DNA of 52,990 nucleotides from an uncultured Pseudomonadota bacterium (lineage in GTDB: Bacteria; Pseudomonadota; Gammaproteobacteria; Enterobacterales; Succinivibrionaceae): the NCBI GenBank assembly GCA_900317945.1, contig ONIT01000032.1:1-52990 (forward strand), written 5' to 3'. Within the stretch, counting starts at the first letter, position 1; every line of letters starts with the position of its first letter. Below are positions 19,095 to 39,572 of this stretch, in pieces. Made by a program: the position numbers and the translations under genes. Below the pieces are notes generated by a model, which saw only the letters and a list, made by a program, of their open reading frames with translations, was not told where the DNA came from and made no database searches.

Positions 19095-19181
19095 GCCCAG
19101 CTGGCGGAATTGGTAGACACGCAACCTTGAGGTGGTTGTGCCCGAAAGGGCGTGCGAGTTCAAGTCTCGCGTTGGGCACCA
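19095..19181 (+). tRNA. leuU: tRNA-Leu (anticodon GAG), copy 1
   Basis: An 87-nt type II tRNA with encoded CCA. The acceptor stem GCCCAGC/GTTGGGC pairs (one G-T), the anticodon stem is CAACC/GGTTG around TTGAGGT, giving anticodon GAG, and the long variable arm TGCCCGAAAGGGCG is present. It lies directly downstream of secG, matching leuU in E. coli. An identical copy lies at 21901-21987. Confidence 0.97.
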
Positions 19182-19204
19182 TCCTGGAATTACTTCGACA
19201 ATAT

Positions 19205-19291
19205 GCCCAGCTGGTGAAATTGGTAGACACGCTGTCTTCAGGTGGCAGTGCTAGTGATAGCATGCGAGTTCAAGTCTCGCGTTGGGCACCA
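19205..19291 (+). tRNA. tRNA-Leu (anticodon CAG)
   Basis: 87 nt with encoded CCA. Acceptor stem as in the previous tRNA; anticodon stem CTGTC/GGCAG around TTCAGGT gives anticodon CAG (reads CUG). It starts 23 bp after the GAG tRNA and is probably co-transcribed with it. Confidence 0.96.
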
Positions 19292-21900: not shown

Positions 21901-21987
21901 GCCCAGCTGGCGGAATTGGTAGACACGCAACCTTGAGGTGGTTGTGCCCGAAAGGGCGTGCGAGTTCAAGTCTCGCGTTGGGCACCA
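21901..21987 (+). tRNA. tRNA-Leu (anticodon GAG), copy 2
   Basis: 87 nt, base-for-base identical to copy 1 at 19095-19181, including CCA. Upstream and downstream sequences differ apart from the CCAGT just before the tRNA. It lies 2.7 kb from copy 1 and marks the right border of the accessory segment. Confidence 0.97.
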
Positions 21988-28461: not shown

Positions 28462-30498
28462 ATGAGAGAACTTCCAAAGTTTTCGGCGATAGATCCCGCG
28501 AAGATCGTGCCGTCAGTACAGCAGGCCATCTCTGACTACAAGAAGGCGATAGAGGATGCCTGCGCCAAGGGCGTCTATACCTGGAATGACTTCATTGTCC
28601 CCCTCAATGAGGCAGACAAGAAGTTCGATGATGTCTGGCATCCCATCGTGCATCTCAACGGCGTTACCAACACCCCGGAGCTCAGGAAGGCCTTTGAGGC
28701 GTGCCTGCCCGCGGTAACCGAGTTCTACAACTGGGCAGGGCAGCATGAGGGGCTTTTCAAAGGCTATACCGCGCTGCACGAGAGCCCAGAGTTCGCAAAA
28801 CTCAGCAAAGCGCAGCAGACTGAAATAAACCATGAGCTGAGGGACTTTAAGCTCTCCGGATTCGGGCTTCCTGACGACAAGAAGAAGCGTTTCAATGAGA
28901 TCGCATCCGAGCTCTCGCAGCTTGCCGCAAAGTTCGGCAACAACCTCCTCGACTCGACTGTCGGCTGGAGCAAGGTGGTAACCGACAAGGCGCTCCTTGA
29001 GGGACTCCCTGAGTCATACCTTGCGGGAGCCAGGGAGAAGGCCGAGGCGAAGGGACTCAAGGACTCCTGGCTCCTCACGCTTGACTTCCCCAGCTACAGG
29101 CAGGTCATCATGTACGCGGAGAACAGGGAGCTGAGGCGTGAAATTTACGAGGCCTACATGACCCGCGCGTCAGATCTCGGGCCCAATGCCGGCAAGTGGG
29201 ACAACGGCCCCGTCATGCGCGACATCCTGAGGCTCTCCGAGGAGCAGGCCAGGATCCTTGGCTGCAATAACTACGCTGAGCTCTCGCTTATTCCCAAGAT
29301 GGCAGGCAGCACCTCCGAGGTGTTCAGCTTCCTCCGTGAGCTTGCCTCCCGTGCGAAGCCGCAGGCCGAGAAGGAGCTCGCTGACCTCAGGAAGTTCGCC
29401 GCTGAGAACCTCGGCATGAAGGAGCTTGAGCCCTGGGACATGACCTGGGCTTCCGAGAAGCAGAGAAAGGCGCTCTACGACATCGATGACGAGCAGCTCC
29501 GCCCGTACTTCCCGCTTGAGCGCGTGCTCTCCGGGCTCTTCGAGACCGCGCACCGGCTCTACGGCATCAGCGTCAAGAAGCATGAGGGCAGCGTTGATGT
29601 CTGGAACAGTGATGTCAGGTTCTTCGATGTGTTCAATGAGGACGGATCGCTCCTCGGGCACTTCTACTATGATCCGTTCGCCCGCGAGATGAAGCAGAGC
29701 GGCGCCTGGATGGACACCTGCCTTGATCTCGGGAAGGCTCCTGACGGCACGGTGCTTGAGCCGGTCGCCTACCTCTGCACCAACTTCACGAAGCCCGCCA
29801 AGGGTGAGGAGGCAAGGCTTACCCACGATGACGTGATCACCATCTTCCACGAGTTCGGGCACGGGCTCAACCTCCTTCTTACCGCAGTCGATGACGCTCC
29901 GGGCGTCACCGGCATCAACGGCGTTGCCTGGGACACGGTAGAGCTCCCGAGTCAGTTCATGGAGAACTGGTGCTGGGAGAAGGACGCGCTCTCCTACATC
30001 TCCGGAAGGACTGACACCGGCGAGCCGCTGCCTGACGATATCCTGAAGAGGCTCCTTGACGCCAAGAACTTCCACTCCGCCATGGGGACCCTCAGGCAGC
30101 TTGAGTTCGCGCTCACTGACTTCACGCTCTTTGCTGAGTACGATCCGGAGCATGGGAGGACCGTCGAGCAGATCACGGATGAGGTGAGGAAGGAGGTCAG
30201 GGTAGTTCCGACTGCTCCGTTTGACCGCTTCCTCTGCTCGTTCTCCCATATCTTCAACGGCGGCTACTCAGCGGGCTACTACAGCTACAAGTGGGCCGAG
30301 GTTCTCGCGGAGGATGCCTACTCCAAGTTCGAGGAGAACGGGATATTCGACAGAAAGACCGGCAATCTCTTCAGAAAGTGCATCCTCTCGGTCGGCGGCT
30401 CATGCGATCCGATGGAGGCCTTCGTCGCGTTCCGCGGCAGGAAGCCGACTATTGACGCGCTGCTCCGCCACACCGGCATCACTTACGTGAAGAAATGA
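28462..30498 (+). CDS. prlC: Oligopeptidase A (M3 zinc metallopeptidase)
   Basis: A cytoplasmic peptidase that degrades oligopeptides and cleaved signal peptides. The 678-aa protein (E. coli PrlC about 680 aa) has the zinc motif HEFGH at residues 463-467 in TIFHEFGHGLNLLLT, a downstream glutamate region around VELPSQFMENWCWE and the GYSAGYYSYKWAEVLAEDA block typical of M3 peptidases. It is probably translated from a yigZ-prlC message. Confidence 0.96.
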   Translation: MRELPKFSAIDPAKIVPSVQQAISDYKKAIEDACAKGVYTWNDFIVPLNEADKKFDDVWHPIVHLNGVTNTPELRKAFEACLPAVTEFYNWAGQHEGLFKGYTALHESPEFAKLSKAQQTEINHELRDFKLSGFGLPDDKKKRFNEIASELSQLAAKFGNNLLDSTVGWSKVVTDKALLEGLPESYLAGAREKAEAKGLKDSWLLTLDFPSYRQVIMYAENRELRREIYEAYMTRASDLGPNAGKWDNGPVMRDILRLSEEQARILGCNNYAELSLIPKMAGSTSEVFSFLRELASRAKPQAEKELADLRKFAAENLGMKELEPWDMTWASEKQRKALYDIDDEQLRPYFPLERVLSGLFETAHRLYGISVKKHEGSVDVWNSDVRFFDVFNEDGSLLGHFYYDPFAREMKQSGAWMDTCLDLGKAPDGTVLEPVAYLCTNFTKPAKGEEARLTHDDVITIFHEFGHGLNLLLTAVDDAPGVTGINGVAWDTVELPSQFMENWCWEKDALSYISGRTDTGEPLPDDILKRLLDAKNFHSAMGTLRQLEFALTDFTLFAEYDPEHGRTVEQITDEVRKEVRVVPTAPFDRFLCSFSHIFNGGYSAGYYSYKWAEVLAEDAYSKFEENGIFDRKTGNLFRKCILSVGGSCDPMEAFVAFRGRKPTIDALLRHTGITYVKK

Positions 30499-30595: not shown

Positions 30596-31170
30596 TTGCT
30601 CAAAACCGGTTTTTACTTGCTCAAAATACCAGAATAGTATTTTTTAAAAGTTCTTAGATAAATAGATATCTATGCAAAAATTCATTTGAAAATAAGCCGG
30701 ATTCAAGGGGGTTACTTGCTCAAAACCAATTTTTACTTGCTCAAAATACCGGAATGGCATTTTCTAAAAAATTTCGATAAATCAGATTATTGCGTGTAAA
30801 CTCATCTAAAAACCAGCCAGTATCATGAGGAGTTACTTGCTCAAAACCAATTTTTACTTGCTCAAAATCTAAAACTGCTTGCTCAAAATACCGGAATGGC
30901 ATTTTCTAAAAAAATTCGATAAATCAGATTATTGCGTGTAAACTCATCTAAAAACTAGCCAGTATCATGAGGAGTTACTTGCTCAAAACCAATTTTTACT
31001 TGCTCAAAATCCAATACCTGCTTGCTCAAAATACCGGAATGGTATTTTTTCGAGAAATGTTCGATAATTCAGATTGTTATGCGTAAACTCATATAAAAAG
31101 CAGCCTTAATCAATCGGAGTTACTTGCTCAAAACCAATTTTTACTTGCTCAAAATCTATTGCTTGCTCTG
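30596..31170. repeat. Phased TTGCTCAAAA repeat array
   Basis: Twelve exact copies of TTGCTCAAAA start at 30596, 30617, 30716, 30737, 30837, 30858, 30879, 30979, 31000, 31022, 31124 and 31145. A decayed thirteenth (TTGCTCTGAC) follows at about 31163. Within clusters the spacing is 21 bp (once 22), two turns of the helix. Clusters recur every 120-145 bp, and the intervening DNA is itself conserved (for example ATACCGGAATGGCATTTTC and TCAGATTATTGCGTGTAAAC). The array lies 3' of the AlbA_2 gene. Read on the minus strand each motif can encode FEQV, but stops interrupt every unit. Confidence 0.9.
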
Positions 31171-31271
31171 ACACTCAGACGACACCCATTATGTGCCTTT
31201 TCTATCACAAAGAGTACTGCTGTCGAGTCGGCATTATTCTATAAGGCAATTGCATGCTGGCCAATTACCAT

Positions 31272-32747
31272 TTAATTTTCAGTCCATGCTGTAAGACTGT
31301 ACTTTCTTGATGGATCATTTGTTGTACCACTTGCATTTGCCAAATCTGCAGCAATCAGCTTTTTCATACGAGTCATAATAGTGTTCCGTGCCTTTCCAGT
31401 GTAATTCTCAAGTTCGTTTCTGGTGGCAGGACCATGATTGAATAGGTATGTAATAATCTGACGTTCCAAACTGTCCATTGTTTCCCAAAGACTGTTTCCC
31501 AACAGCTTTTCTATGCGCTGCCTCTGCCGGTTGGTTCGTATTAGAATATTGTTCTTCAAGGTCAGCTTCACCGAGTATCCTGGTTCACTGTACTCAGGGG
31601 GATCCAGGAAAAACTTATTCATGTCTTTATAGATACGCTTGACACCTTCGTTTAATTCTCTTACCCAGCTGAACTCCGTCAGAACTCTTGATATCCTTGG
31701 GTTTCTTGAGAATCTTGTGTTCTTGATGTTTTCGACCGTTACAATGCCGGGAAGTTTTCCCGGACTTTCGATCTCCATACGATCATCAAACATTTTGACC
31801 AGTATAAAGTTTCCGCTCAAGGCGTATTCGCGGTGGGTGACTGCATTGATAATGCCTTCCTGCCAGGCGAATTCAGGATATTCCGGTATAGTCTCGAATT
31901 TTCCTGTATTTTCGTCCAGCACTGTGAAGTCACGGAGTTGGCCACTAATGAATTTCTTCATGCTGACTATAATTTTAAGAATCGGCTCATCAATGCTAAA
32001 GTCCTTAATGATATTAAGCGATGCCCCAACTCCTGCATAATTCCCGTTGTAGCGTACAAAGCGAATCCTGCAGTTTGGATAGAACTGCATTATGTTTCTT
32101 GCAAATAGTAGAACAGCCGCATTCGTCAGTTTCTGTTTGCCGTCAATCTCTTTCATGAACCCTCGTGAGCTCAGAACCTGCTCACTGGGCAGACCTTCGG
32201 CATTTATGACTTCCTTATACTTTTCAAGAAGAGCTTCGTCCAAATCACTGAGTGTCGCATCAGGACAGATTTCATCCTCATAGCGCCTGGTGTTTCTTGC
32301 GTATTCGAGATTTCTGAGATCATCGCCTCTCATCTCCCTGGATTTGTCTCCTATGCGAAGGTAGGTTTGATCGTTCGCTGTCCTGATAATCTGATCTTGG
32401 GTTTCAAATATGTGGAGAAGCAGTAGCCGATCCTGCTGGCCGTTTTCATTGATTATGTCCAGAAATTCTTCCTTGAAGTCTGGCATAGGCTTGCAGCACT
32501 GCTTTGGAGAATTGATGAATTCGTTGATTTTGTCTTCAGAAACTGAGTTTATTCCCTCGAGCGCATGTGTTTTGTCATTAATTCCGAGGACCAGTGTTCC
32601 TCCACCGGCGTTCGCAAAGGCTGAAATATGCTGTGCAAGATCTGACGGCTTGATCTTTGCTGATTTTCGGTCGAAATATTTGTTTTCATGTTCATTGGTA
32701 ATGTAGTCCAGCGTCAGGATTGGATTGATTTCGGAATGAACATTCAT
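31272..32747 (-). CDS. Schlafen-type AlbA_2 domain ATP-binding protein with winged-helix tail
   Basis: A 491-aa protein starting at ATG 32747 with AGGCGG upstream (the frame is open to 32792 without a ribosome site). Residues about 15-140 form an AlbA_2/Schlafen-like domain: ENKYFDRKSAKI, HISAFANAGGGTLVLGIND and TYLRIGDKSREM. About 280-400 resemble the GHKL-type HATPase_c_4 domain: WQEGIINAVTHREYALSGN and DRMEIESPGKLPG. The last 60 residues contain a helix-turn-helix (GPATRNELENYTGKARNTIM). Proteins of this type are annotated as putative transcriptional regulators or RecG-like helicases. Some are linked to defence islands, but no specific role can be assigned. Low GC and the flanking repeat array mark it as accessory DNA. 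Confidence 0.9.
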   Translation of the reverse strand: MNVHSEINPILTLDYITNEHENKYFDRKSAKIKPSDLAQHISAFANAGGGTLVLGINDKTHALEGINSVSEDKINEFINSPKQCCKPMPDFKEEFLDIINENGQQDRLLLLHIFETQDQIIRTANDQTYLRIGDKSREMRGDDLRNLEYARNTRRYEDEICPDATLSDLDEALLEKYKEVINAEGLPSEQVLSSRGFMKEIDGKQKLTNAAVLLFARNIMQFYPNCRIRFVRYNGNYAGVGASLNIIKDFSIDEPILKIIVSMKKFISGQLRDFTVLDENTGKFETIPEYPEFAWQEGIINAVTHREYALSGNFILVKMFDDRMEIESPGKLPGIVTVENIKNTRFSRNPRISRVLTEFSWVRELNEGVKRIYKDMNKFFLDPPEYSEPGYSVKLTLKNNILIRTNRQRQRIEKLLGNSLWETMDSLERQIITYLFNHGPATRNELENYTGKARNTIMTRMKKLIAADLANASGTTNDPSRKYSLTAWTEN

Positions 32748-35107: not shown

Positions 35108-37360
35108 CCTTATGAACTAAGGGCTTAGGTAGTCCTGTACCTCTGAAAATTATTTAGCATAGTACGTTAACAATACGTAAACCATGCTACAATGAAACAT
35201 GGCCCCTATCAGGAGAAATCTGCCATGTTCCTTCAGCGTGTAAAAAACAAGGCAACCGGTAAAACTTATCTGTACCTTATGGAAGTAACTTCGGCAAAAA
35301 ACTCTGCCGGCGAGGTTGTCCATATCAACAAGAAGGTCAAATCGTTTGGCAATGAAGACAAATTCAAACAGGAAAAGCCTGAAGAGTACAAGCTGCTGAT
35401 AGATCAATACAGCAGAGCAAACGTCAAGGCGGCAGTAGAGCTTCATAAAAGCCAGACTTTGGCAGAGACTCTCAAAGACATGACATCATCAGGGCTGCTG
35501 TCACTCCCAAACGGCACAACACCGGTGTTCTGCTACGGGCTGTCGGTAATAAAGCAAATCTGGAATAAGCTGAACCTTGATTACAAACTCTCGTATATCC
35601 GGCAGCATGACACTGACATAAAATTCAAGGCGGAGGATGTGGTTTTTTATCTTGCCGGCATCAAAATCATAGACCCCGCATCGCATCTGCAGGCCTATCA
35701 GTCGCGCTTCAGCTACCTTGGGGCTCCGGCAGAAAATGTTTCACTGGAGGATTTTTACCGCTCCCTGGATTTCATTGCTGATGCCAAAGAGAAGGTCATG
35801 AAGCATCTGCACAAAGAGGTAAGCAGAATTACCGGCAGAGACCTGAAAATGGTGTTCTTCGACTGTACAAACACCTATTTTGAGACCAGGCTTGATGACC
35901 AGGAGAAACTCATAAGGAAGCTTACGCATGAAACATCCGGCATGATGGAGCAGGAAGGCCGGACACAGGAAGAAATAGAGAAGTATCTTGAAAGCGCTGA
36001 GTTCGCGGAAGAGCTGAAGAATGAGGCAGAAAGACTTGATCTGAAGCGCATGCGCGGCCCGTCCAAGGAAAAGAGGATAGATTTGCCGCTTGTCGGGATA
36101 GCGCTGATTATCGATACAAATGGCATACCTGTCGATTTTGAGGTTTATGACGGCAACAGGTCGGAGTTCAAAATAGCGGTACCAGCCATACGGAAGCTGG
36201 CTGACAAATACGGAGTTGAGGACTGCATCTTTGTAGCAGACAGGGGCATCAACTCGGCAGTAAACCTGAAAGACCTTCATGACAGCGGATTTGGCTTCAT
36301 CGTCGCCCAGAAAGTATCACGCCAGGGGACAAAGCTTCGAGAGGCGATGCAGAGCAGTGACGGCTGGACAAAACTCAATGATGACCTGCGATACAAGGCG
36401 ATTCCATGGGTCAAGAGCAAGGTAATCGTGGATCCAGAAACAGGTGACAGAAAAACCGTCAGCGTCAAATGCACCCTGGTACTGACATACAGCGAGTCCA
36501 GGAAGAAAAGTGACGCTGTTGCCAATGACAGGCAGATTGAAAGGGCCAGGGCTGCTGTAAGCTCAGGAGAGGTTGTAGGATACAAGTCAGTCGGCTGGAA
36601 AGAGCTTGTTGAGGTCAGCTCCGAAAAAGATGAGTATGTGGCGGTATCGCTGAAGGATGAACTGATAAAAGAACGGAGGCTGAGGGAGGGCTTTGCGGCC
36701 TGTGTCTATGTCTCAGCTGACAAATCCAAACAGCAGATTACCCCTGAAACAGCCATTGCCGCTTACAAACGCCAGGTAAAAATCGAAGACTGCTTCCGCA
36801 TAATGAAGACGAACTTCAGCCTCAGGCCTATGTATGTCTGGAATCCCAGACATATCAGGGGGCATGTAACCATCTGCGTCATAGCCCTGGTAATACTCAG
36901 GCTGTTACAGCTCAGGCTGGACAAGAATGGTGTCCATATGAGCACTGACGATATCGTGGACGCTCTTGATAATGCACGGTTGACGCTGCTCGCTTCAGCA
37001 GGGCGTAATGATTTGTACCTCAACGCAAGCTCGATCCATGATTTTTCACAGCTTAATGCCCTGAAAGACAGCACTGCCGTCGGACAGAAAGCGGCAGAGG
37101 AAGATCATGATGACGTTAAGCGCGGAATAAATGATTTACTGGCATGTACCGGCCTTAAGCCTTTGAAAACGGTTAACCTCCTCAGTGACCTCAATAACTG
37201 TCTTAAGGCAAGGATGCCCAGCAGGGAGGCTGCCATAGGTGAACTTGTTTCTTCAAATCTCAGGGCTGTATACCAACAATGCATGTGACCTGAATGGCGA
37301 TATGAATTTTACGTACTAATAAAAAAATTTCACTGGGCGCTGGTCCTTATGGAATAAGGG
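35108..37360 (+). mobile_element. IS1634-type insertion sequence (limits approximate)
   Basis: The transposase gene is bordered by CCTTATGAACTAAGGGC (35108-35124) and by GTCCTTATGGAATAAGGG (37343-37360). Read inward, the right end gives CCCTTATTCCATAAGGAC, so the two ends form imperfect inverted repeats that are also nearly palindromic. Exact 19-bp direct repeats lie at 35089-35107 and 37401-37419, the right copy 40 bp beyond the presumed end. IS1634-type elements are known for long, variable target duplications, but the exact ends need comparison with other copies. Confidence 0.65.
35192..37288 (+). CDS. IS1634-family transposase, apparently intact
   Basis: 698 aa. Motifs of IS1634 transposases are visible: the first catalytic Asp in MVFFDCTNTYFETR, then KRMRGPSKEKRIDLPLVGIA, LIIDTNGIPVDFEVYDGN, the second Asp in CIFVADRGINSAVNL, and a C-terminal block with Lys/Glu-rich KRQVKIEDCFRIMKTNFSLR. 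No stops or frameshifts interrupt it. The true start may be an ATG at 35225 (MFLQRVKN), 11 codons in, since the AGGAG at 35210-35214 lies ten bases before that codon. It splits the tandem pair of unknown membrane proteins. Confidence 0.9.
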   Translation: MKHGPYQEKSAMFLQRVKNKATGKTYLYLMEVTSAKNSAGEVVHINKKVKSFGNEDKFKQEKPEEYKLLIDQYSRANVKAAVELHKSQTLAETLKDMTSSGLLSLPNGTTPVFCYGLSVIKQIWNKLNLDYKLSYIRQHDTDIKFKAEDVVFYLAGIKIIDPASHLQAYQSRFSYLGAPAENVSLEDFYRSLDFIADAKEKVMKHLHKEVSRITGRDLKMVFFDCTNTYFETRLDDQEKLIRKLTHETSGMMEQEGRTQEEIEKYLESAEFAEELKNEAERLDLKRMRGPSKEKRIDLPLVGIALIIDTNGIPVDFEVYDGNRSEFKIAVPAIRKLADKYGVEDCIFVADRGINSAVNLKDLHDSGFGFIVAQKVSRQGTKLREAMQSSDGWTKLNDDLRYKAIPWVKSKVIVDPETGDRKTVSVKCTLVLTYSESRKKSDAVANDRQIERARAAVSSGEVVGYKSVGWKELVEVSSEKDEYVAVSLKDELIKERRLREGFAACVYVSADKSKQQITPETAIAAYKRQVKIEDCFRIMKTNFSLRPMYVWNPRHIRGHVTICVIALVILRLLQLRLDKNGVHMSTDDIVDALDNARLTLLASAGRNDLYLNASSIHDFSQLNALKDSTAVGQKAAEEDHDDVKRGINDLLACTGLKPLKTVNLLSDLNNCLKARMPSREAAIGELVSSNLRAVYQQCM

Positions 37361-37501: not shown

Positions 37502-39572
37502 GAGCTGGGTCTTGCGTGCCCGAAATGCGGAAAGAGAATCATTGAGGACGGCACGGCTTACAGGTGCGAGGCCGGTGATTTCAAATGCGGAAAGGAAATT
37601 CTCGGCACCGAAATCTCCCGCGATGAGCTGCAGAAGGCCATTGCGGGGCAGAGCGATGAGCTCGGCTTCAGGAGCAGTAAGACCGGCAAAACCTTTCTGG
37701 CCAGGCTGGTGCTCAGTGAGGCCAAGGACAGCCTTGACTTCAGGTTTTCTGACAGGAATGGCGAGGACTCCGGGCTGAAGTGCCCGAAGTGCGGCGGGAA
37801 AATCGTTGATGACGGCAAGGCTTACAAGTGCGAGAGCGGAGATTTCAAGTGCTGGAAGATCATCAGAGGCCATGAAATCACCCGCGAGGAGCTGCAGAAG
37901 GCACTTGACGGCAAGAGCGATGAGCTCGGCTTCACCAGCCGCGACTCCGGCAAACCCTACAAGGGCCGGCTGGTACTTAATGAGGCAAAGGACGGCCTTG
38001 CCGTTAAGCTTGACAGCAGAAAGAGCGATGACACCGGCCTTAAGTGCCCGAAGTGCGGCGGAAAAATCATTGATGACGGCAAGGCTTACAAGTGCGAGAG
38101 CGGAGATTTCAAGTGCTGGAAGAGCATCAGAGGCCATGAAGTCACCCGCGATGAGCTGCAGAAGGTTATTGACGAAGGCAGTAGCGATGAGCTCGACTTC
38201 ACCGACCAAGACACAGGCAAGCCTTATACGGCCCGTCTGAAGCTTTCCTCTGACAAGAAGTCTGTAGAAGTCCCGAAGCCCGAGGACACCGGGGAGAAGT
38301 GCCCGAACTGCCGAAATAAAATCATGGAGACAGACAAGGCTTATTGGTGTGAGTCCTGTAATTTTACATGCGATAAGGAAATCCTCGGCACCAGAATTTC
38401 CCATGATCAGCTGCATAAGATCGTTGAAGAGGGCAGGAGCGATGAGCTCGACTTCACCGACCACGACAGCGGTAAGTCTTATAAGGCCCGTCTGAATCTC
38501 TCCGAGGACAATAAGACGGTGGTTGTCCCGAAGCCAAAAGACACCGGCATTAAGTGCCCGAAGTGCACGATGAAAATCATGGAAACAGACAGGGCATACT
38601 GGTGCGAGAGCGAGGCCTGTGATTTTACATGCGATAAGGAAATTCTCGACACCAAAATAACCCGCGATGAGCTGAAGAAGGTTGTCCTTAACGGCAAGAG
38701 CGGTAAGCTCGACTTCACCGACAAAGACACCAAAAAGCCCTACAAGGGCCGTCTGGTACTTAATAAGAAGAAGAACGGCCTTCACGTTGATAAGCTTGAC
38801 TACATGAAAGTTATCTTCGCTGTCATTAGTTTTGTTGTAGCCACAATCAGTTTCATAGGGATATTTTTACCTGATCTGTTCAATATGAACAAGGGCAGTA
38901 TCACGAGATTTGAGACTACATTAAGTGACAAAAAAAGCGCACAGAAACTTGAAGAGTTCCTCGACGCGAACGTGGGCAAGATTGTTGAACTGACCATCCA
39001 CTATAAGCAGAATCTGGTGTATGGCCTGGTGTGGCTCCTGGTGGTGGGACAGTGCCAGTGCTGCCCATGATGTCACCTTCAGCCATTTTGGTGACAACAA
39101 CAGGTTTTATGTGAAATCATTCCTGTACGACAAGAACCTGTTTGAAGTAGAGTACAGGGACTTCGGCGGGATCGGGTACTGCGACGCCATAACCAGGTAC
39201 GCCTACCAGCTGATGATTCCCTATGTCAAAAATGATAAGCTCGCGTTCGAGTGGCAGAGGGACAGGGAAAAAAGCAAGGACTATGTTGCTCTTCCGTCTC
39301 CTTACTGGGTGTTGAAGGGAACCTTCGTTGTCAACGTCAAAAAAGGCGAGGAGCTGACAGACAACATAACAACCTTATATGATGAGTTTCAGCAGAGAAA
39401 ACTCAGATCAGACTATGGCAAGGATTACGTTGTCCCGGAGATAGCCAAGATACTCGCTGTTGATCCGGCCTGCGGCGAGAGAACCGGCAATGGCGACTAC
39501 TCATTTTCCGGCAAGAGCTTTGAGTTAGAGCCTCTTACGCAGCAGCAGCTACTGCAGATGGCATATAACTAA
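37502..39572 (+). pseudogene. Zinc-repeat/membrane protein gene, 5'-truncated and frameshifted (copy 2)
   Basis: An open frame without ATG, GTG or TTG runs from 37502 (after TAA 37499), so the true start was lost, probably on insertion of the neighbouring IS. A later GTG at 37709 is inside repeat 1. It encodes five zinc-ribbon repeats resembling the C-terminal repeats of topoisomerase III (Toprim_Crpt), then a membrane segment (VISFVVATISFIGIFLPDLF) and the domain found in the gene at 33835. At 39029 about 60 nt present in copy 1 are replaced by one T (net loss of 59), shifting the frame: the first part stops at 39070 and the rest continues in another frame (GSWWWDSASAAHDVTFSHFG) to 39572. 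Unbroken, it would encode zinc repeats, a membrane anchor and the unknown domain in one chain. Confidence 0.85.
37517..38800 (+). repeat. Five tandem zinc-ribbon (Toprim_Crpt-like) coding repeats
   Basis: The first cysteine codon of each unit lies at 37517, 37781, 38045, 38300 and 38555, periods of 264, 264, 255 and 255 nt. Each unit reads like CPKCGGKIVDDGKAYKCESG with a fourth Cys, then an ITRDELQK helix and an SDELDFTDxDxGKPYxARL strand pattern, as in topoisomerase C-terminal repeats. Repeats 2 and 3 are the most alike, suggesting recent duplication. Confidence 0.88.

Follow-up and report, generated by a model that had tools for sequence, protein, structure and literature searches.

Here we report a helically phased array of direct repeats lying 3′ of a predicted Schlafen ribonuclease gene, and the occurrence, at the 3′ ends of most of its closest-clade homologues in several phyla, of similarly phased arrays that are each built from a different word. 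The array was identified in the window, by which we mean the whole 52,990-nt stretch of DNA that was analysed. Sequence comparison makes it probable that this is a cognate multi-site double-stranded DNA array for the adjacent Schlafen protein, its candidate binder, and that gene and array together constitute a two-part module. The encoded protein is probably an anti-phage, RNA-cutting protein; it is a member of a known architecture (PMC12839542), and the array is a new, undescribed part.

Layout and uniqueness of the array

Twelve exact copies of the 10-mer TTGCTCAAAA, all on the + strand, span positions 30596-31154 of the window, compared with 0.10 copies expected by chance across the whole window from shuffled sequence. 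The copies start at 30596, 30617, 30716, 30737, 30837, 30858, 30879, 30979, 31000, 31022, 31124 and 31145. Within clusters they are spaced by 21 bp, with a single exception of 22 bp, and the distances from the start of one cluster to the start of the next are 120, 121, 142 and 145 bp. Apart from the 22-bp spacing, these measurements confirm the first-pass annotation of this DNA, which had described twelve identical 10-mers in clusters of two or three copies recurring every 120-145 bp. As the base 5′ of TTGCTCAAAA is C in 12/12 copies, the invariant word of the array is CTTGCTCAAAA. The array comprises the following features:

30596..31154, + strand: array of 12 CTTGCTCAAAA sites in 5 clusters (2, 2, 3, 3, 2), with 21-bp phasing inside clusters
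30596..30626, + strand: cluster 1, 2 sites
30716..30746, + strand: cluster 2, 2 sites
30837..30888, + strand: cluster 3, 3 sites, spaced 21/21 bp
30979..31031, + strand: cluster 4, 3 sites, spaced 21/22 bp
31124..31154, + strand: cluster 5, 2 sites, closest to the 3′ end of the Schlafen gene
31163..31172, + strand: degenerate 13th site TTGCTCTGAC, 18 bp past the last full site

The array is AT-rich (33-35% G+C, versus about 60% in prlC) and sits between the convergent 3′ ends of prlC (28462-30498, + strand) and the Schlafen gene (31272-32747, − strand). Between unit 1 and units 2-4 the site bases are kept at 20/20 positions and the remainder is 63-67% identical; units 2 and 3 are 98% identical outside the sites. 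No promoter excess was detected inside the window array, and no match to its word at ≤1 mismatch was present upstream of the window gene. In the 2.89-Mb genome TTGCTCAAAA occurs 13 times, the copy outside the array being a singleton on a different contig, and the array has no second copy elsewhere in that genome. We rejected a transposon end as the identity of the array, there being no second copy, no inverted partner and only one orientation, and saw no connection with the transposase gene at 35192-37288. A plasmid or phage source was likewise rejected after DNA similar to the window array was found in neither the plasmid nor the phage collection.

A search of public genomes for two copies of TTGCTCAAAA placed 21 bp apart returned 68 genome and 5 viral stretches, which on inspection were mostly coiled-coil heptad codons or other coding sequence (DKRFEQ repeats encoded on the opposite strand are one example), the 7 codons of a heptad amounting to 21 bp. 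The exact word is therefore the wrong search target, and the check that the first-pass annotation had suggested, looking for such pairs in other genomes, is misleading: it is the architecture that is conserved and not the exact word. These loci were accordingly dismissed as relatives of the array, with the exception of L083, a UBA2810 contig from the same genus and the sole homologous stretch among the matches.

The same array as in L083 is present in a sister species of that genus (G001), at the same place after prlC. The shared array part is identical to the window at 146/151 positions (97%), the intergenic stretch before the array at 77/93 (83%) and the prlC coding DNA at 1382/1500 (92%). 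An ortholog of the Schlafen gene was not found in the G001 assembly, an absence that is uninformative rather than contradictory, because the assembly is 77% complete and its contig stops inside the array, at a repeated IS end. This end of an IS or other mobile element, GGGGCTATTGCATAACCCCGT (L119:6595-6616, at the G001 contig end), is also seen at several other contig ends. The possibility that the array is a feature of the prlC locus was discarded, as the other genomes examined have no array after prlC, the sister species excepted.

A Schlafen-type protein with a hypervariable winged helix

The gene beside the array encodes a three-domain protein with the following features:

31272..32747, − strand: 491-aa protein with Schlafen AlbA_2, HATPase_c_4 and winged-helix domains, the proposed array binder
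32331..32687, − strand: AlbA_2 (Schlafen) domain, residues 21-139 (Pfam SLFN_AlbA_2, 6.9e-18; Schlafen structures matched)
31557..31814, − strand: HATPase_c_4 domain, GHKL-type, residues 312-397 (Pfam, 5.3e-22)
31275..31505, − strand: C-terminal MarR-like winged helix, residues about 415-491, hypervariable in homologues

The two Pfam matches show that the gene had been called correctly as an AlbA_2 ATPase in the initial reading. In the alignment of homologues, E297 and N301, just upstream of the HATPase_c_4 domain, are invariant; within the AlbA_2 domain E21 and D58 are conserved and position 26 is D or E. E21, D26 and D58 align with the region of what we take to be the Schlafen E/E/D RNase site, and the three acids are consistent with a predicted RNase site of this kind. 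An AlphaFold2 model of the window protein (mean pLDDT 86) places helices and a wing at residues 426-485, and its C terminus structurally matches MarR-type DNA-binding winged helices. Using Foldseek, the best match to the AlbA_2 and HATPase part was DIP2311, an uncharacterised protein of Corynebacterium diphtheriae (PDB 3lmm; E 5e-26), and Schlafens were also matched.

Among array-bearing homologues the winged helix has a mean identity of 27%, versus 58% in the adjacent segment. Array words are more alike where winged helices are more identical (Mantel r=0.28, p=0.0014), a relationship that is suggestive only because identity in the adjacent segment tracks word similarity nearly as closely (Mantel r=0.24, p=0.016).

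Phased arrays recur at homologous genes

Arrays were measured as 7-mer pairs at a distance of 9-24 bp within 320 bp around the stop codon, with a threshold of at least 6 pairs. This threshold was reached by 12/15 of the closest homologues (≥340 bits, n=15) versus 6/92 control gene ends (Fisher p=2.8e-9), the homologues having been drawn from a subset of the databases, some of them on short contigs, and the controls being a modest number of other ORF ends from the same sort of loci. The three homologues below it are L167 and L168, whose long-unit arrays escape this measure, and L197, which has two copies. Upstream of these genes repeats are mostly lacking, with L185 as the clear exception. In a tree of 41 sequences the window gene falls in a 17-sequence clade (support 98/95), of which 16/17 members were scored as having an array, with the weak cases L195 (3 copies) and L197 (2 copies) scored by eye; the array label changes 5 times on the tree, versus 14 in shuffles. 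The remaining clade member, L193, has no significant array, and among more distant homologues there is no array in the actinophage and in most of the sister clade. The first-pass annotation had counted against its own reading both homologues that consistently lack such repeats and repeats lying mainly away from such genes; as it turns out, most of the closest clade carries arrays, and control gene ends do so at a rate near 6%. Further viral and plasmid scans for additional homologues returned only loci already in the set.

The homologue arrays have periods of 10, 11, 12 or 20-22 bp, or consist of 21/22-bp pairs or triplets in 77-145-bp units. Most begin 0-30 nt past the stop codon, and they are always tandem and in a single orientation. 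The nearest homologue (G032; 58% identity, from another genus of the family) is followed directly 3′ by ACCGTTCAAAA pairs at 21 bp in 104-119-bp units, and those of Streptococcus dysgalactiae and S. respiraculi (42-47% identity) by about 20 and 15 10-bp units, respectively, after the stop. A mixed array follows the Fusobacterium vincentii homologue, and arrays of 12-, 11-, 20- and 21-bp period are found in genomes of other classes. On viral contigs we observed AACTTGACG triplets at 21 bp in ∼120-bp units from +311 (L167), AAGGTT pairs 22 bp apart, repeated in seven units of 77 bp (L168) and 10-bp arrays (L169 and L198). The two 10-bp copies of L197 fall short of significance, and a stop codon interrupts this gene; more generally, the genes of L192 and L197 are interrupted by a frameshift or stop codon, yet short arrays follow them.

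Several loci depart from this 3′ arrangement. The only clear 5′ array is that of L185, a long array of 11-bp GAGGGGTTCGN units at 1065-1322, upstream of the gene, which may be a displaced cognate array or unrelated. A second group (L109-L112) carries TTGCCGATT arrays, and in L110 and L111 the array is itself coding sequence, placed between the ATPase and winged-helix parts (gene positions 1213-1440), as 42-bp units encoding LADSQSELPIGGEK. The 9-mer TTGCCGATT is there kept in two reading frames, so it is the nucleotide word that is under selection; in L112 the TTGCCGATT array follows an early stop codon. The distant homologue L113 has AATTGCA repeats at 944-1077 that alternate at 14/18 bp and are not helically phased. 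In L184 a 12-bp array is succeeded by a terminator-like hairpin, because of which this array is probably transcribed, leaving room for a role as RNA.

The neighbours of these genes vary, and include type I and IIG restriction genes, a TOTE conflict locus, phage integrases and housekeeping genes, some of them convergent. Several homologues lie beside restriction-type defence genes and several on plasmids or phages; many array-bearing copies are chromosomal between housekeeping genes, and many are not near BREX. Next to the window copy we identified neither an RM nor a BREX gene. The arrays of L160 and L159 lie just before a helicase (HsdR-like) gene or hsdS, and the L193 gene is followed by an EcoEI-type HsdR gene. 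Membership of a restriction operon was rejected as a general rule given this variety, and since the array recurs with the gene while the neighbours change, we conclude that it belongs to the gene. At its end, the HsdS-like gene that follows the Fusobacterium homologue encodes an (SKQA)n repeat of 12-bp units (L159:5900-5997) that is possibly length-variable.

Array periods follow the pitch of B-DNA

In a list of 19 array periods, partly curated by eye, the values concentrate around multiples of 10.5 bp (mean cosine 0.78, with 0/20,000 null draws as high), and 16/19 arrays have a period of 10, 11, 20, 21 or 22 bp (p=2.8e-6). Degenerate arrays alternate their spacing, as in L188 (11/11/10/10/11), L159 (11/10/11) and L110-L112 (20/22/20/22). 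The fit to 10.5 bp is imperfect for L184 (12 bp), L113 (14/18 bp) and the unit length of L168 (77 bp).

A proposed docking array and its alternatives

The first-pass annotation had regarded the AlbA_2/HTH protein as the natural candidate binder, a suggestion that gains support from the phased 3′ arrays recurrently carried by homologues. On account of the B-DNA phasing and the hypervariable winged helix, we propose that the protein binds its own array as double-stranded DNA, and does so cooperatively, with the winged helices occupying several copies on one face of the helix. More speculatively, the array would be a platform on which the predicted Schlafen RNase docks next to its gene and is stored, oligomerised or gated, and a disturbance of the DNA or of the complex, for example by phage infection, might release or activate the enzyme. 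The array is not a simple autoregulatory operator, because 16/18 loci examined have no word at ≤1 mismatch upstream of the gene (the exceptions being L185 and one distal single match in L112), in agreement with the earlier remark that a 3′ position is odd for such an operator.

The main rival is a role as RNA, suggested by the start of most arrays directly at the stop codon and by the terminator-like hairpin that follows one of them: the array would be a repetitive 3′ UTR of the Schlafen mRNA, bound or cut by the encoded RNase in autoregulation or as an RNA antitoxin. The tandem, single-orientation layout of the arrays is in keeping with such a role, as is the RNase activity of animal Schlafen domains (PDB titles; PMC12839542). 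We nevertheless judge it unlikely. A spacing of 10.5 bp in many independent arrays is unneeded by an RNA reader, the long L185 array lies 5′ of its gene and those of L110 and L111 lie inside the coding region, and the perfect 10-bp arrays fold only via trivial periodic pairing. The window array itself has no Rfam match and on neither strand folds better than shuffled sequence (z 2.23, 0.29; units z about 0.35), which leaves the structural RNA that had been entertained in the first-pass annotation unsupported. An ordinary multi-site operator or silencer for downstream genes or the local operon is also unlikely, and we place it after the RNA role. The arrays lying just before HsdR-like or hsdS genes, and the HsdR gene after the L193 gene, would suit it, and phased direct repeats befit cooperative repressors, for which there is a precedent in BldC, which binds direct repeats cooperatively (PMC5859096). 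Against this, the neighbours differ widely and may be convergent, the window array faces the prlC 3′ end and lacks a promoter excess, other arrays adjoin housekeeping genes or integrases, and the Schlafen gene itself lacks the words upstream, save in the two loci named above.

We consider it very improbable that the array is a neutral minisatellite, expanded at a permissive position through slippage or unequal crossing-over and devoid of any binding role. The perfect 10-bp arrays of L161 and L160, with about 15 and 20 copies, do look recently amplified, and units 2 and 3 of the window are nearly identical even in their linkers, but many sequence-unrelated arrays occupy the same position with a shared helical phasing, sites are kept while linkers fall to 63-67%, TTGCCGATT is conserved in two frames and repeats are found at few control gene ends. 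Least probable of all, to the point of being hardly credible, are centromere- or origin-like iterons stabilising a mobile element that carries the gene. Phased direct repeats linked to a predicted DNA-binding protein, the location of several homologues on plasmids or phages and the precedent of type III partition (TubR-tubC) would fit such iterons, but no ParA, TubZ, ParM or Rep-like gene was found at the window gene or among the neighbours scanned, and many copies are chromosomal, between housekeeping genes.

Extending the cognate docking array to the whole family is a tentative step. In such a DNA-gated effector family, each Schlafen RNase gene might possess a private phased strip on which its hypervariable winged helix assembles; an occupied strip would keep the RNase silent or stored, and disturbance by phage attack on DNA, anti-restriction proteins or replication would release it. 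Diversification of the winged-helix and array cassette could then prevent cross-reaction between copies in one cell. For proteins of the type described in PMC12839542, the array could explain how the RNase stays off and what is sensed. A private array per gene, if true, would be the missing partner and would name the winged-helix ligand of each homologue; specificity would be readable from sequence, DNA-dependent gating would be directly testable, and many orthogonal protein-array pairs would exist.

Relation to known systems

Fusions of a Schlafen RNase with a minimal histidine kinase and a wHTH have been reported from at least 1017 taxa as BREX-linked proteins with a suggested role in abortive infection (PMC12839542, which cites bioRxiv 10.1101/2025.07.24.666596). 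The window protein has all three domains in the same order (Schlafen, HATPase, C-terminal wHTH). The published proteins are linked to BREX and BREX-related systems, and the homologues studied here often adjoin restriction-type defence genes; the linkage differs in that the window copy has no identified RM or BREX gene beside it and many array-bearing copies lie away from BREX. The term “direct repeat” occurs nowhere in the main text of PMC12839542, whereas the window family has arrays. Among the papers searched, which did not extend to bioRxiv, we found none describing such arrays.

Phased iterons are bound by winged-helix proteins in type III partition systems such as TubR-tubC. Both TubR-tubC (background in PMC7762940) and the MerR-like BldC resemble the present arrangement in having multiple direct repeats at about 1-2 helical turns with a DNA-binding protein encoded nearby. 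They serve partition or promoters, whereas the present sites follow a Schlafen/GHKL gene at its 3′ end and are absent upstream of it, and no partition motor was found. Type III toxin-antitoxin loci also place tandem repeats beside a predicted RNase gene. There the repeats are found ahead of the toxin gene and form RNA pseudoknots; in contrast, the repeats described here follow the gene, their period varies with DNA pitch, and the window array has no RNA structure.

Other features of the window

Elsewhere in the window, tandem repeats of about 255-264 bp at 37516-38755 look protein-coding and contain repeated CPKCG motifs. Three tRNA-Leu genes lie close by one another at 19095-19291 and 21901-21987, two of them in a 110-bp tandem duplication and with different anticodons.
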